From Fructobacillus ficulneus (GTDB lineage: Bacteria > Bacillota > Bacilli > Lactobacillales > Lactobacillaceae), in assembly GCF_001047075.2 (NCBI RefSeq), contig NZ_DF967991.1, forward strand, positions 39,974-78,955: DNA of 38,982 bases, read 5' to 3'. A program made the translations under genes and the position numbers. The notes under the pieces are model-generated. The model saw nothing but the letters and a program-made list of their open reading frames with translations, searched no databases and was not told the origin of the DNA. Every line of letters starts with the position of its first letter. Position 1 is the stretch's first letter. Below, piece after piece: positions 22,518 to 27,520 of the stretch.

Positions 22518-23450
22518 TTAAGCCTCTTCTTTCATTTTGTCAGCAATCAAAGCCAAAGTATCGGTCATTGCTTCTGCAGAATACTGGTTATCACATTGAT
22601 TCAATTCATCCAATCCCACAAAGTGATTGAATTTATCAAATGTCACCATTTGTTTTTGTGTCTTGGTTGTCCGCCCCGTATCATGAAGCTCAGTCAGCAC
22701 CTCTTCATCCGCATATGTTTGTGCATAAGTTAGGGCACAGGGATGAACAACAAAGCTGAAACCAATTTCTTCTAATTCCTTTGTTGTCGCCATCGGCGTT
22801 GCACCGTCTTCAATCATATTAGCCATCAGCGGTGTGTCCGGGAATGTATCGGCAATTATTTTCATTTCAGCGATACTTTCTGGGGCTTCAATGAAAATCA
22901 TGTCGGCGCCAGCAGCTTTGTAACGCTTACTGCGATTAATAGCCTCATCCAACCCATACATTTGTCGAGAATCCGTCCGTGACATAATCAAAAAGTTGTC
23001 GTGGCGGCGCGCAGCGGCGGCAACTCGCAATTTTTCTTCTAATTCTTCAGTTGGCACAACGCTTTTACCGGCCATATGACCACAACGTTTTGGCCAAACC
23101 TGGTCTTCTAAGAAAATTCCGGCGGCACCGGCTGCTTCGTAACAACGGATTGTTCGAGCAACATTCTCCGGATCGCCATAACCTGTATCACCATCAACAA
23201 AGACAGGAATATCCACAGCAGCTACAATTTCTTTTACTTTTTGATACATTTCACCAAAGTCTAAGATACCCCGGTCTGGCAATCCCAATGTACTAGCAGA
23301 CGTAGCATAGCCGGCACAAAATACTGCTTTAAATCCTGCCTTTTCGGCCACCTTGGCAGCTAAGGCATCAGGGACAACCACAATGTTTAAAATTTCCTTA
23401 TCATAGATTAAGTGATTAAATTCATTTCGTTGTTTTTCAAAATTGCGCAT
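22518..23450 (-). CDS. ICL/PEP-mutase superfamily lyase
   Basis: This 310-residue protein belongs to the isocitrate lyase/PEP phosphonomutase superfamily. It has the metal-binding motif VDGDTGYGD (85-93), the acid in LEDQVWP (about 115) and the lyase signature KRCGH with Cys123, so it should cleave a C-C bond in a 2-hydroxy or 2-alkyl dicarboxylate (methylisocitrate, dimethylmalate or 2-alkylmalate type) rather than act as a mutase. The exact substrate is unknown. GAGGGGG precedes the start. A shorter, degenerate relative is encoded 15 bases upstream and an MFS carrier follows. Confidence 0.85.
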   Translation of the reverse strand: MRNFEKQRNEFNHLIYDKEILNIVVVPDALAAKVAEKAGFKAVFCAGYATSASTLGLPDRGILDFGEMYQKVKEIVAAVDIPVFVDGDTGYGDPENVARTIRCYEAAGAAGIFLEDQVWPKRCGHMAGKSVVPTEELEEKLRVAAAARRHDNFLIMSRTDSRQMYGLDEAINRSKRYKAAGADMIFIEAPESIAEMKIIADTFPDTPLMANMIEDGATPMATTKELEEIGFSFVVHPCALTYAQTYADEEVLTELHDTGRTTKTQKQMVTFDKFNHFVGLDELNQCDNQYSAEAMTDTLALIADKMKEEA

Positions 23451-23465
23451 CTAGGTATCCCCCTC

Positions 23466-24038
23466 TTAGTTCAAAAATTCTTGTTCGTCGGCTGCAAAGT
23501 AATGAATATTTAGGCTAGATTCATCCAACTTATCCGCATCTTCATTTAAAACGATATCTGATAGGCTGAGCACAGATAGTAACTCCAACCGTTCCCATTT
23601 TTCCGTTTGGCTGTACTGGTTCCAGCAATCAAACTTAATCCACAAATCGGTGTTTTCTGCGTCATGGGCATCTATGGCCGCCTTTAATTTACCGGCTAGT
23701 TCCGCCAATTCTGCGGGCTTTTGTTGGTCAGGTCGACTATGTGAAGGATACTGTTGGTCATTAAGAAGAATGATATCAGCACCATGGTTTTCCATTTTTT
23801 TAATGGAGTTATAAGTATTCAACGGATTTCCAAAACCTGACTGACCATCTAGAATAAAGGTTTTATTGGTTAAGACTCGCAGATAATCAAAATAGTTCAA
23901 ATACTCTGATAGGGATAAAAGTCCCTCATTATCTTCACCAAGTAACTGATTAGCTAACTGCCGTCCTGATAAGTAAAAATACTGGTTCTTACTAGCTGAC
24001 TTAACCGCCTGTGCTGACACTACTGTTTGATACGTCAT
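23466..24038 (-). CDS. Degenerate, shortened ICL/PEP-mutase-fold protein (probable pseudoenzyme)
   Basis: The 190-residue product aligns by eye with the first two thirds of the next gene's product: GLLSLSEYLNYFDYL matches GILDFGEMYQKVKEI, and LDGQSGFGNP (63-72) matches VDGDTGYGDP. The second metal-binding Asp is Gln, the acid of LEDQ is Asn (LNDQ), and KRCGH is replaced by SHSRP; the last third is absent. The frame is open, with AGGAGG before the ATG and its own attenuated promoter, so it looks like a maintained non-catalytic partner rather than a fresh pseudogene. Function unknown. Confidence 0.75.
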   Translation of the reverse strand: MTYQTVVSAQAVKSASKNQYFYLSGRQLANQLLGEDNEGLLSLSEYLNYFDYLRVLTNKTFILDGQSGFGNPLNTYNSIKKMENHGADIILLNDQQYPSHSRPDQQKPAELAELAGKLKAAIDAHDAENTDLWIKFDCWNQYSQTEKWERLELLSVLSLSDIVLNEDADKLDESSLNIHYFAADEQEFLN

Positions 24039-24089
24039 AAAACCCTCCTGATTTCCACATCTATAAACCTGTTTATTTTCTATGAGAAT

Positions 24090-24192
24090 AAAAAAACCCG
24101 TACAATCATTGAAAATAATTGTACGGGGATAATTTCAAAGAAATTATTCAATTGGTTCTCCGTACAAAAACTTTCGTTTATGACCTGTACGG
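24090..24192 (-). promoter_or_regulatory. Four-arm transcription attenuator before the ICL-fold operon
   Basis: On the minus strand four complementary arms follow the leader peptide: A CCGTACA (24186-24192), B TTGTACGG (24160-24167), C CCCCGTACAAT (24118-24128) and D ATTGTACGGG (24097-24106) with seven T after it. A:B (topped by AAAC-GAAA-GTTT) plus C:D gives an intrinsic terminator. B:C, enclosing the 8-bp stem ATAATTTC/GAAATTAT (24129-24147), gives an antiterminator. The terminator ends about 50 bases before the first structural gene. The alternative pairing is seen in sequence; its control by translation of the leader peptide is inferred. Confidence 0.75.
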
Positions 24193-24235
24193 ATAAATGA
24201 GAAAATAAAAATTTATCAAACGTTCAGATCACAAT

Positions 24236-24322
24236 TCAGATGACGACGACTCGAATTGTGACCAGCACGTTTGATGCACTAAGTGACAAAATATTCTTTT
24301 GTTTGTTAATGTCTAGCATCAT
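24236..24322 (-). CDS. Val/Ile-rich leader peptide of the ICL-fold operon
   Basis: A 28-codon ORF, too short for ordinary gene calling, starts at ATG 24320-24322 behind AAAGGAGAAGGA and ends at TGA 24236-24238. Its last eleven residues are NVLVTIRVVVI, encoded with three consecutive GTC and one ATC codon, much like the Val-rich leader peptide of the enteric ilvBN operon. The end of the ORF lies in a long stem: ATCAAACGT/ACGTTTGAT outside, TCACAATTC/GAATTGTGA inside (24215-24275). It follows a consensus promoter and precedes a terminator/antiterminator, so a ribosome stalled at Val/Ile codons would be expected to change the downstream fold. Confidence 0.78.
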   Translation of the reverse strand: MMLDINKQKNILSLSASNVLVTIRVVVI

Positions 24323-24352
24323 TTTATTTCCTTCTCCTTTTGCATTGGTTTT

Positions 24353-24381
24353 ATTATAATAACATTATAAAATAATTGCAA
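24353..24381 (-). promoter_or_regulatory. Promoter of the leader peptide and ICL-fold operon
   Basis: On the minus strand TTGCAA (24376-24381), 17 bases and TATAAT (24353-24358). Transcription would begin about 25 bases before the leader peptide ATG. Confidence 0.8.
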
Positions 24382-24787: not shown

Positions 24788-26413
24788 TTAGTACTTTGGT
24801 TCCCACTTCAAGTCGGCGATGGCCTTCTTCACGTCGGCGATCTCTTCCTTCGTGATACCTTGGTCAACAGCTGATTGAGCAGTTGCGATAGCAACTGTTT
24901 CAGAGAAGACAGTCAATTGTGAAACTGGAGGCAAAACAGCTGCTCCTGGCTTCGTTGCATCAACAATACCACCCAATGAGTGAGCAGCAGCTGAAATCAT
25001 TTCATCATTCAAAACAGTTGCAGTAGAAGCAATTGTTCCAAGACCAAGACCTGGGTAAACCAAGGCGTTGTTAGCTTGACCGATTTCATAAGTTACACCC
25101 TTGTATTCGATAGGGTCAACTGGGATACCAGTAGCGATCAAAGCCTTACCATCAGTCCATTCAAGCAAGTCTTCAGCCTTTGCTTCAGCCAACTTAGTTG
25201 GGTTTGACAATGGGAAGATTGCTGGACGTTCTGTATGAGCGGCCATTTCTTGAACGATTTCCTTAGTGAAGGCACCAGGTTGTGTTGAAGTTCCAACCAA
25301 AACAGTTGGGTGGATAGTCTTCACAACGGCTTCCAAAGTAGTCAATTCGTCAGCGTTAGCAAATTCTGAACGTGAACGGGCGAATGGCTTTTGTTCAGGA
25401 GTCAAGTCAGTCATGTCATCGAAGAGCAAACCTTGCTTGTCTACCATGTAGATGTGCTTGCGTGCTTCTTCTTCTGACAAACCTTCTTGCAACATTTCTT
25501 CGAACATCCGGTTAGCAATTCCAGCACCGGCTGAACCTGCACCGAATGACAAGTATGTTTGGTCTGACAACTTTTCACCAGTAATTGTCATGGCACCCAA
25601 AGCGGCTGCCAAAGTGATGATACCAGTTCCTTGAATGTCATCGTTAAATGTTGTGATCTTGTCCTTGTACTTGTCCAAGATAACAGCGGCGTTTGAACGA
25701 CCGAAGTCTTCCCAGTGCAAGTACAACTTAGGGAACAAGTTTTCAGCAGCTGAAACAAAGCTGTCAACGAATTCAGTATACTTGTCACCACGAACACGTT
25801 CGTGACGGTTACCCAAGTACATTGGGTTGTCCAACAATGATTGGTTGTTTGTTCCGTTATCCAAGACAACAGGCAAAACGTTTTCAGGGTTAACACCAGC
25901 AGCTGCTGTATAAACCATCAACTTACCAACGGCGATATCAACACCGTTAGTACCCCAATCACCAATACCCAAGATTCCTTCGGCATCAGTAACAACAATC
26001 AACTTGATGTCACGGCCGTTGGCACCAGCCTTCAAAGCTGATTCCATTACGTCTGGTTCGTCGATTGACAAGTAAACAGCGTTTTGTGGGTCCACGAATA
26101 ATTCTGAATAGTTTTCAATCGTGTCAGCAATAACTGGATCATAAACGATTGGCATAAATTCAACCACGTGTTGTCCAAATAAGTAGTAGAACAAAGTGTG
26201 GTTCGTGTTGAAGATTTCCATCAAGAACAAACGCTTTTCTAAGTCAGATGGCTTAGACAAGTATTGTTGGTATGTCTGTTCTGATTGTTCTTCCAAAGTT
26301 TGCACACGGGCTGGCAAAAGACCGGCGATACCGAGGGCCTTTCGTTCTTCCATTGTGAAACCAGTTCCCTTGTTCAAGAAGGGATTGTTCAAAATCTCAA
26401 TTGGTGATGTCAT
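24788..26413 (-). CDS. mleA: Malolactic enzyme
   Basis: This enzyme decarboxylates L-malate directly to L-lactate and CO2 with NAD and Mn as cofactors, giving deacidification and proton-motive force. From ATG 26413 the protein is 541 residues, the length typical of malolactic enzymes, and the N-terminus ([20 protein letters not shown]) matches them closely. The sequence also shows the malic-enzyme-family motifs NDDIQGTG and the dinucleotide-binding [13 protein letters not shown]. An upstream start 17 codons earlier is rejected, since AAGGAG precedes ATG 26413. mleR is divergent. No malate permease gene (mleP) follows, unlike in Oenococcus. Confidence 0.96.
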
Positions 26414-26464
26414 GAGATAGACTCCTTTATCTTCTGTTTCTAATCCGAGGCGGTCCCGAATCAC

Positions 26465-26602: not shown

Positions 26603-27520
26603 TTGCGGATAACAGACTTACAATACTACTTAGCTCTGGCCAACTATCGTAATTTTTCTCAAGTTTCGGATAAATTCGGGGTTTCCCAGCCAACTATCTC
26701 TCTAGCAATGAAGCGTTTGGAAAAAGAAGTTGGTGCCAAATTAATCATTCGGCAACCAGCTCATAAAAACGTCGGTTTAACCCATTCTGGAGAAGTGTTG
26801 CACCAGCACGCCTCACTGATTGTGGAACAGTACGAGCTGGCATTGACTGAAATCAAACGCAATAGCGAACAGTCATTACTAATTGGACTGCCACCCATTA
26901 TTCAAATTTCTTATTTTCCAGCCATTGCAAACGTTCTTTCTGATGAATCATTGGCCCATTTAAAAACGGTTGAAGTCGGTGCACAAGAGGCAATCGACCA
27001 GCTCAAAAATGGTGAAATCGATGCATCCTTTGTCGGTTATCTCGACGATATTGATCAAAGTGAATTCAACTTAATTCCCTTTGATGAGCAGCCTTTCGCT
27101 ATCTTGGCCGCTGACGACTACCCCCTGGCTCAAAAGGGGTCAGTATCGTTTAATGAATTAAAAGATGAAAAGTTTATTCTATTAAAGGGTAACTTTGTCC
27201 ATAATTATGCTTTTGACCTGCTTGCACGCTCCGCCCACGTCCAGGCCAATGTTTTATTTAATTCCTCTGAGCCCTATGGAATTTTAAGCTTAATTCGACA
27301 AAACCGCGGAATCGGTTTTATGGCTGCTCATCCAGCATTAACCTTTCCAGGTGTGACGGCTATTCCAATCACAGATAAGAACCAACCCATTTTCAAGGTC
27401 GGCTTCGCCTACCGTAAAGATTTAGTCTTAACTCCAGACCAACAAAAAATCTTTGACGAACTATTGGCTGCTAGCCAAATGGGCCGACCTGATCATTTAA
27501 TTCCACCCATGGAAGGCTAA
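26603..27520 (+). CDS. mleR: LysR-type regulator of malolactic fermentation
   Basis: This 305-residue protein has the N-terminal LysR winged HTH (LQYYLALANYRNFSQVSDKF, then VSQPTISLAMKRLEKEVGAKL) and a C-terminal periplasmic-binding-like effector domain. Its position divergent to mleA matches MleR of Lactococcus and Oenococcus, the malate-responsive activator. The start codon is TTG at 26603, seven bases after GGAG; the alternative internal starts would cut the HTH. The metal-type binding protein gene follows after two bases, so the two form an operon. Confidence 0.88.
   Translation: MRITDLQYYLALANYRNFSQVSDKFGVSQPTISLAMKRLEKEVGAKLIIRQPAHKNVGLTHSGEVLHQHASLIVEQYELALTEIKRNSEQSLLIGLPPIIQISYFPAIANVLSDESLAHLKTVEVGAQEAIDQLKNGEIDASFVGYLDDIDQSEFNLIPFDEQPFAILAADDYPLAQKGSVSFNELKDEKFILLKGNFVHNYAFDLLARSAHVQANVLFNSSEPYGILSLIRQNRGIGFMAAHPALTFPGVTAIPITDKNQPIFKVGFAYRKDLVLTPDQQKIFDELLAASQMGRPDHLIPPMEG

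Follow-up and report, generated by a model that had tools for sequence, protein, structure and literature searches.

A predicted valine/isoleucine leader-peptide attenuator before an operon of ICL-fold proteins in Fructobacillus ficulneus

The window analysed here is a stretch of 38,982 nucleotides from Fructobacillus ficulneus (assembly GCF_001047075.2, contig NZ_DF967991.1, positions 39,974 to 78,955 of the forward strand). On its minus strand, the interval that separates a malolactic enzyme gene from a three-gene operon holds a promoter, a ribosome binding site (RBS), a short open reading frame (ORF) and four pairing arms (Table 1). The operon encodes an ICL-fold pseudoenzyme, an ICL-fold lyase and an MFS carrier; these assignments, proposed in an earlier note from the letters alone, were borne out by profiles, motifs and predicted models. 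The malolactic enzyme gene (24788–26464) is directly upstream of the attenuator region, and a divergent LysR regulator gene occupies 26603–27520.

Table 1. Leader and operon features in the window, in positions of the whole stretch.
Feature	Position	Strand	Evidence
Sigma-70-type promoter, TTGCAA-N17-TATAAT	24353–24381	-	Sequence; same hexamers and spacing in 4/4 orthologous leaders
RBS of leader ORF, AAAGGAGAAGG	24330–24340	-	Sequence
Leader ORF, 28 codons and stop, MMLDINKQKNILSLSASNVLVTIRVVVI	24236–24322	-	Sequence; V/I-rich ORFs in 3 orthologous leaders
Leader stem, Val/Ile codons inside	24229–24261	-	Folds; consensus stem in 4 leaders
Leader stem strands: strand 1, TCACAATTC, with strand 2, GAATTGTGA	24261–24253 with 24237–24229	-	
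Strand 2 core, GUGAUCUG, predicted partner of arm A under ribosome stall	24225–24232	-	Duplex -8.4 kcal/mol
Arm A, UAUCCGUACAGGUCAU	24180–24195	-	Sequence, folds
Arm B, contains UUGUACGG, partner of A or C	24155–24170	-	Folds
Arm C, contains CCGUACAA; antiterminator with B, terminator with D	24114–24129	-	Folds
Arm D and U-tract, intrinsic terminator with C	24090–24110	-	Sequence, folds
RBS of first structural gene, AGGAGG	24044–24049	-	Sequence
ICL/PEP-mutase-fold pseudoenzyme, 190 aa, catalytic motifs lost	23466–24038	-	Profile match, alignment, predicted model
ICL/PEP-mutase superfamily lyase, 310 aa, DGDTGYG and KRCGH intact	22518–23450	-	Profiles, alignment, model
MFS carrier, 428 aa	21229–22515	-	Nearest NCBIfam: aromatic acid/H+ symporter family, below its cut-off

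Judged by sequence, the short leader ORF has its own promoter (TTGCAA at 24381–24376, a spacer of 17 nt, TATAAT at 24358–24353) and its own RBS. It starts with an ATG at 24322, followed by a second in-frame ATG at 24319, and encodes a peptide ending in NVLVTIRVVVI, with GTC GTC GTC ATC TGA as its 3' codons. The core of arm A is CAGGTCAT (24187–24180), and segments TTGTACGG of arm B (24167–24160) and CCGTACAA of arm C (24126–24119) lie in the arms that form the 8-bp B:C duplex (-10.0 kcal/mol). Arm D plus T7 spans 24107–24090, with seven T following C:D. An antiterminator and an intrinsic terminator that exclude each other were thus found before the first structural gene, and the promoter, RBS, 28-codon ORF and competing C:D and B:C hairpins described in the earlier note were confirmed on sequence and folds. 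The 292-nt region had a fold energy of -79.9 kcal/mol vs. a shuffle mean of -51.3 (z -5.95; 0/200 shuffles). An equally biased ATG ORF occurred in 20 of 400 shuffles (about 5%), and the codon-label rotation test for this leader alone gave 1/29. By itself, codon bias gives modest support to the window leader; conservation carries the weight. A scan of the window with 4227 Rfam families at gathering score returned 0 matches, as did the T-box covariance model RF00230, and on these grounds the window was judged to hold neither a T-box nor a leader of a known Rfam family.

The pseudoenzyme, whose C-terminus is shorter than in most relatives, scored 29.1 bits against Pfam PEP_mutase, under the cut-off of 31.5, and its predicted model (pLDDT 90.6) matched 1xg4 best (Z 20.2, 2.3 Å over 188 residues). 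The lyase scored 155.9 bits against the Pfam PEP_mutase/ICL family, has residues D86, D88, E115, C123-G-H and R158 that were invariant among 26 sequences, and gave a predicted model (pLDDT 86.4) with Z 33.5 to 1xg4 (1.9 Å over 282) and Z 32.1 to 1zlp; its fold and catalytic motifs place the 310-aa protein in the ICL/PEP-mutase superfamily. Both are shared with the petal death protein (1zlp) and PrpB. The lyase was not called PrpB because its score against the PrpB equivalog TIGR02317, 261.9 bits, missed the cut-off of 354.4; it also differs from both proteins in having a noncatalytic paralogue beside it and usually an MFS carrier as well. Among solved proteins, the petal death protein was the closest by sequence, and methylisocitrate lyase, oxaloacetate acetylhydrolase and dimethylmalate lyase were equally near by fold (Z within about 2). 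In Liquorilactobacillus sicerae (L066, 342–1979), pseudoenzyme and lyase are fused in one ORF of 546 aa. This natural fusion suggests that the two proteins may work together.

Three orthologous leaders were present in two other genomes, G032 (two operon copies) and G067 (one), with the peptides ...SVISIAIQIIII, ...SVAVQVVVTNEL and ...SVVVSVQVVVSVV.... The promoter was exact, including its spacing, in all four leaders (the window and three orthologues), and a Val/Ile codon cluster was kept at the stall site of each, with Val codons swapped to Ile codons in one of the three orthologues. The conservation check proposed in the earlier note spoke for the attenuator, as leader ORF codons and mutually exclusive arms were kept before the operon in G032 and G067. 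That note had proposed a search across Leuconostocaceae; the relatives that carry it are G032 and G067, and nothing found marks it as a trait of that group. For strand 2, the best downstream partner was arm A in three leaders (window, L037, L038); in L036, the A:B hairpin is absent and strand 2 pairs directly with arm C. No Rfam match lay over the leader in L009, L010, L011 and L033. In Limosilactobacillus gastricus (L064, 4744–4809), the same operon follows a Val/Leu leader ORF, MTKVSKLAQTSATVVVVLLLS (TVVVVLLLS), whose hairpins differ from those in the window and gave no clean switch: modelled B:C pairing was 1.00 with the ribosome on the Val codons, 0.56 with it at the stop codon and 0.98 without it.

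The switch was modelled by placing the ribosome codon by codon and folding the RNA downstream of it. With the A site on the Val/Ile codons, 2:A pairing in the window was 1.00 and dropped over the last two codons to 0.75 and then 0.36. The corresponding values were 0.91–0.93 in L037 and 1.00 in L038, there dropping over the last two Val codons to 0.84 and then 0.17, and 2:C in L036 was 0.98–0.99, then 0.75 and 0.30 at the last two. Under such a stall, B:C reached 0.91–0.99 in the window, L037 and L038, and with the ribosome at the stop codon, 2:A or 2:C fell to 0.00 in all four leaders. Stall position thus selected between two folds in silico, with a sensitivity to the modelled transcript end: at the stop codon of the window, A:B and B:C were 0.40 and 0.59 in one run and about 0.7 and 0.1 with the other end; in L037, B:C was still 0.84 at the stop codon in one run, and without ribosome A:B/B:C was 0.95/0.01 in one run and 0.14/0.85 with the other end. 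Since strand 2 paired with A or C under a Val/Ile stall and with neither at the stop codon, starvation would give readthrough in both architectures, and since strand 2 of L036 pairs with C directly, the logic survives the change of architecture.

The coupling first suggested, speculatively, between CGTTT and AAACG did not hold: it is absent from L037 and L038, and in the folds CGTTT is already paired with AAACG of strand 1. What is kept instead is an 8-bp pairing of strand 2, GUGAUCUG, with CAGGUCAU of arm A, which yielded the switch in the folding runs. Duplex energy alone argues weakly for strand 2, with shuffles as good in 27/500 (window), 14/500 (L036), 315/500 (L037) and 34/500 (L038).

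T-boxes (RF00230, gathering score) preceded the orthologous operon at 23 of the 42 loci scanned (13/20, 2/7 and 8/15), a set that includes the window's own copy and three leader-type relatives; the T-box loci belong to many other genera. The specifier triplet after GAAA was GTA (GUA, Val) in 23/23, and in the alignments it occupies the Rfam consensus specifier column; the frame GAA...XXXA was taken from a figure legend of a Staphylococcus aureus paper (PMC5794164). T-box motifs below gathering score were seen at five more loci; in L081 and L083 one extra A precedes GUA, whereas the specifier could not be read clearly in L017, L021 and L065. The last of these is a T-box-like leader before the same operon in L. 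coleohominis. Neither a T-box nor a biased leader was found upstream at L012/L063, L069, L076 and the copies of a second operon type L057, L058, L060 and L094; the L066 locus begins near a contig end. The strongest evidence for Val is the T-box specifier, since it does not rest on the leader peptide. Two unrelated RNA sensors, as predicted, point to one amino acid, Val, and an operon whose sensor has changed while the amino acid was kept is evidence of convergent regulation.

We consider it likely, with a probability of roughly 85%, that the region is a ribosome-mediated leader-peptide attenuator that senses the charging of Val-tRNA (and Ile-tRNA) through the ribosome on the leader peptide, with the operon on when charging is low. 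Its elements, their conservation, their pairing partners and the agreement in amino acid with T-boxes in other genera are computed; in the cell, the switch would work as follows. When Val and Ile are ample, the ribosome would reach the stop codon and cover strand 2, A:B and C:D would form, and transcription would end. When Val/Ile-tRNA is uncharged, a ribosome stalled on the Val/Ile codons would cover strand 1, so that strand 2 (GUGAUCUG) could pair with A; arm B would then be free for C, the terminator would be blocked and the pseudoenzyme-lyase-MFS operon would be transcribed. Expression at low charged Val/Ile-tRNA and a role in branched-chain amino acid (BCAA) metabolism, both foreseen in the earlier note, gained support from the Val T-boxes elsewhere and from the co-occurrence with leuC and leuA-like genes given below. 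In the model, B:C follows from every stall that leaves strand 2 exposed and strand 1 covered, whatever the codon, as would suit a general translation-rate sensor that antiterminates at every stall with no amino acid specificity; however, the stall stretch is Val/Ile-rich in 4/4 orthologous leaders, including the one with the Val-to-Ile swap, the T-boxes before the same operon specify Val, and other leaders built alike have different codons, which in several cases fit their genes, so that we regard such a sensor as very unlikely. We find it hardly credible that the hairpins are just two ordinary terminators separating the malolactic gene from the next operon and that the short ORF arose by chance. 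The strength of C:D and the Val/Ile richness of the window leader, at only about 5% by shuffling, would agree with that reading, but the ORF has a separate promoter and RBS, and ORF, promoter and exclusive arms are kept before the operon in G032 and G067, where no malolactic gene relative was seen in the stretches read.

Leader-peptide attenuation is textbook knowledge for enteric bacteria, in which the ORF of the ilvB/ilvG and leu leaders is rich in Val/Ile/Leu codons, the leader stem carries these codons in its first strand, and starvation induces readthrough. The window leader is like these attenuators in its biased ORF, the place of the codons, the alternative antiterminator and terminator and, as modelled, readthrough on starvation. 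It differs in that its target is not a known BCAA gene, that T-boxes stand on the same operon in sister genera, and that its arm chain is extended (2:A, A:B, B:C, C:D), which L036 shortens to 2:C, C:D. Within the Firmicutes, one paper describes a Leu-rich ilv-leu attenuator peptide in S. aureus and names the Lactococcus lactis leu-ilv leader as predicted (PMC5794164). Both represent leader-peptide attenuation of BCAA genes, as proposed here; however, the S. aureus target is a biosynthetic operon with Leu dominant, whereas the window leader has Val/Ile codons and an uncharacterised operon. A T-box (RF00230) would share its output (readthrough on uncharged tRNA), operon and amino acid with the window leader, but T-boxes bind tRNA, whereas this leader would sense by ribosome stalling, without a T-box. 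A leader peptide in place of a T-box was reported for hisS-family genes in bacilli (PMC2965389), a replacement before the same gene family in Firmicutes, as here; that case concerns His, whereas the present one concerns Val, another operon and an RNA build common to several amino acids. Attenuators have also been reported for his operons of other Firmicutes groups (PMC9413887), and Lactobacillaceae amino acid genes are known mainly for T-boxes, 291 in 15 genomes (PMC3766115). The open-access main texts searched yielded no Val T-box or leader peptide tied to an ICL-family gene in lactobacilli, no report on how this operon is controlled, and none on one attenuator build serving several amino acids in Lactobacillaceae.

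Among 301 genomes of the family, 24 had a pseudoenzyme match (E up to 1e-10); in the window's own genus, 1 of 13 did. A named genome collection held 37 pseudoenzyme loci, mostly from lactobacilli and also from Tetragenococcus and Aerococcus. All 37 had the lyase ORF and 27 an MFS relative, of which five were on the opposite strand and one was weak (28% identity), several loci being cut by contig ends. Liquorilactobacillus aquaticus (L061) has a short pseudoenzyme ORF and an MFS relative split over two frames. Secundilactobacillus (L057, L058, L060, also L092, L093, L095) has a second operon type, with pseudoenzyme and lyase without a T-box, an adjoining Mga-domain regulator gene, and the MFS gene on the other strand. 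In counts that ignore kinship, leuC was present in 20/24 operon carriers vs. 51/277 non-carriers, leuA-like genes, none of which reaches the leuA model cut-off, in 20/24 vs. 48/277, and, among ilvD-less genomes, leuC in 7/11 carriers vs. 22/247 non-carriers. Four of the 24 carriers lack leuC. The operon as a simple substitute for missing ilv genes was rejected, as 13/24 carriers have ilvD. G000 (89% complete), G032 and G067 have leuC and no ilvD match, and in G000 a leuA-like gene below the model cut-off lies about 1 kb from leuC. Matches to the branched-chain aminotransferase model TIGR01123 were found in 29/29 genomes checked, 27 of them over the cut-off.

Val control and the leu co-occurrence together suggest that the operon supplies 2-ketoisovalerate. 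Our leading guess for the route, possible though doubtful, is that the MFS carrier would import a 2-alkylmalate, most simply 2-isopropylmalate, that the lyase, with the pseudoenzyme as its partner, would cleave 2-isopropylmalate to 2-ketoisovalerate and acetate, and that transamination would give valine. A 2-alkylmalate lyase activity would accord with the fold, the regulation and the gene co-occurrence, and the petal death protein has 2-alkylmalate activity. 2-Isopropylmalic acid has been detected in wine (PMC10814861) and in a lactic vinegar (PMC11219324), which makes an outside source plausible. Carriers with a leuA-like gene could make 2-isopropylmalate, so that its cleavage would be futile unless it were supplied from outside. 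Against this route stand the lyase score under the PrpB cut-off and the 4/24 carriers without leuC. If true, it would be an unrecognised valine route for lactic acid bacteria lacking ilv genes; the change of sensor with the amino acid kept links genes without an assigned role to valine metabolism.

Other functions would be compatible with the same control. The operon may serve disposal or exchange, for example with the MFS carrier exporting a 2-alkylmalate or a keto acid and BCAA shortage being only a cue, or, as a variant of this reading, with the lyase degrading another 2-alkylmalate or oxaloacetate. The nearness of the lyase to the petal death protein by sequence and equally to methylisocitrate lyase, oxaloacetate acetylhydrolase and dimethylmalate lyase by fold would allow such a role, as would the second operon type, which has an Mga-domain regulator gene alongside instead of a T-box; however, control by Val starvation through two unrelated RNA devices and the leu co-occurrence fit supply better. 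We regard disposal or exchange, in either variant, as a serious possibility that falls short of probable. An unlikely route would draw 2-ketoisovalerate from leucine, with LeuB/LeuCD reversed to 2-isopropylmalate and the lyase then cleaving it: the retention of leuC in 7/11 ilvD-less carriers, G000, G032 and G067 among them, and the leuA-like gene close to leuC in G000 would fit, but the MFS carrier would be left unexplained and four carriers lack leuC.

The leader, treated at first as an isolated single case, proved to have several counterparts of the same build in covariance searches. Model R1, built from three of these leaders, was run over 397 genomes, and nine further places were read. 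Ile-run leaders (...MILIIIIII) preceded an operon in G032 (L127) and G067 (L128). In L128, it encodes a hydratase-family protein, an MFS carrier whose best NCBIfam model is that of the window carrier, an alcohol-dehydrogenase-family reductase, a ketopantoate-reductase-family protein and a branched-chain aminotransferase over its cut-off; it could possibly be an unrecognised isoleucine supply route. In G034, an APC transporter (BcaP-like, below cut-off) follows a VVVVVSV leader, and a YjeM-family transporter (over cut-off) follows an Ile/Val/Leu leader; in G197, the genes behind a YYYY leader encode DAHP synthase and AroB, each over its cut-off. One more place in G034, L131, was an equivocal candidate. 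L111, L133 and L134 were dropped as ordinary terminators; because L111, a terminator, scored E 7.1e-7, R1 E-values are not trustworthy alone.

Model R2 (nine training sequences, 295 genomes) matched ten distinct places in G034, three of them training sequences. Outside the training set, the leader ORF looked biased at 9/11 places with E ≤1.1e-5. These matches, all below curated cut-offs where a family is given, were an Ala leader before an aminotransferase, three Ile leaders (Opp4A-like proteins after two of them, an unknown protein after the third), a Trp/Phe/Tyr leader before an APC transporter, an Asp leader before a GltP-like glutamate/aspartate symporter, a Leu/Ile leader before an L-LDH-family dehydrogenase and, in two related genomes, a YYYFWFF leader before an aminotransferase. 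By family, it is plausible that these genes fit the leader codons. L168, before a SerA-like gene, showed no codon bias fitting that gene. L174 was dropped (no B:C complement, beside group II intron matches), as were L175–L180, six places read at E 4.4e-5 to 2.3e-4 without a biased leader. No Rfam match lay over the leaders of 17 wider-group loci.

Among 19 leaders, mean modelled P(B:C) was higher at the cognate codons in 16, and L131, L132, L166 and L167 gave no clean modelled switch. Pooled codon-label rotation over 17 leaders (two near-duplicates dropped) gave 0/20000 as high, a supportive result and no clean probability, because the cognate groups came from each peptide's own bias, the leaders were partly model-selected and many share a genome. 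For single leaders, equally biased dinucleotide shuffles ranged from 0/400 to 253/400 (L037: 114/400), and codon bias was not significant alone in L037, L131, L132, L163, L164, L165, L167, L168, L169 and L171.

We put at about even the odds of a broader reading, in which these leaders would form a modular Lactobacillaceae attenuator class without an Rfam family: a chain of hairpin arms with codons swapped for Val, Ile, Leu, Tyr, Trp/Phe/Tyr, Asp and Ala. In some lineages (ten G034 matches), the class would have expanded to a regulon for amino acids across the whole genome, alongside T-boxes or in their place; in the window, it would reveal a new valine route by ICL-fold lyase, noncatalytic partner and carboxylate carrier. 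An RNA build that recurs with other codons in other genera would amount to an unlisted regulatory class and would help to assign amino acids to transporters and enzymes. T-boxes were present elsewhere in the stretches from G032 (L127) and G036 (L171), so that both sensor types coexist in those genomes, and their persistence there reduces the odds of the broader reading. Attenuator-like elements in G034 (L131, 1130–2191; L164, 2893–3525) precede proteins without an NCBIfam match and with an Ile/Asn-rich start. In G036, a T-box (L171, 2303–2531) lies one gene downstream of the Leu/Ile-type attenuator.
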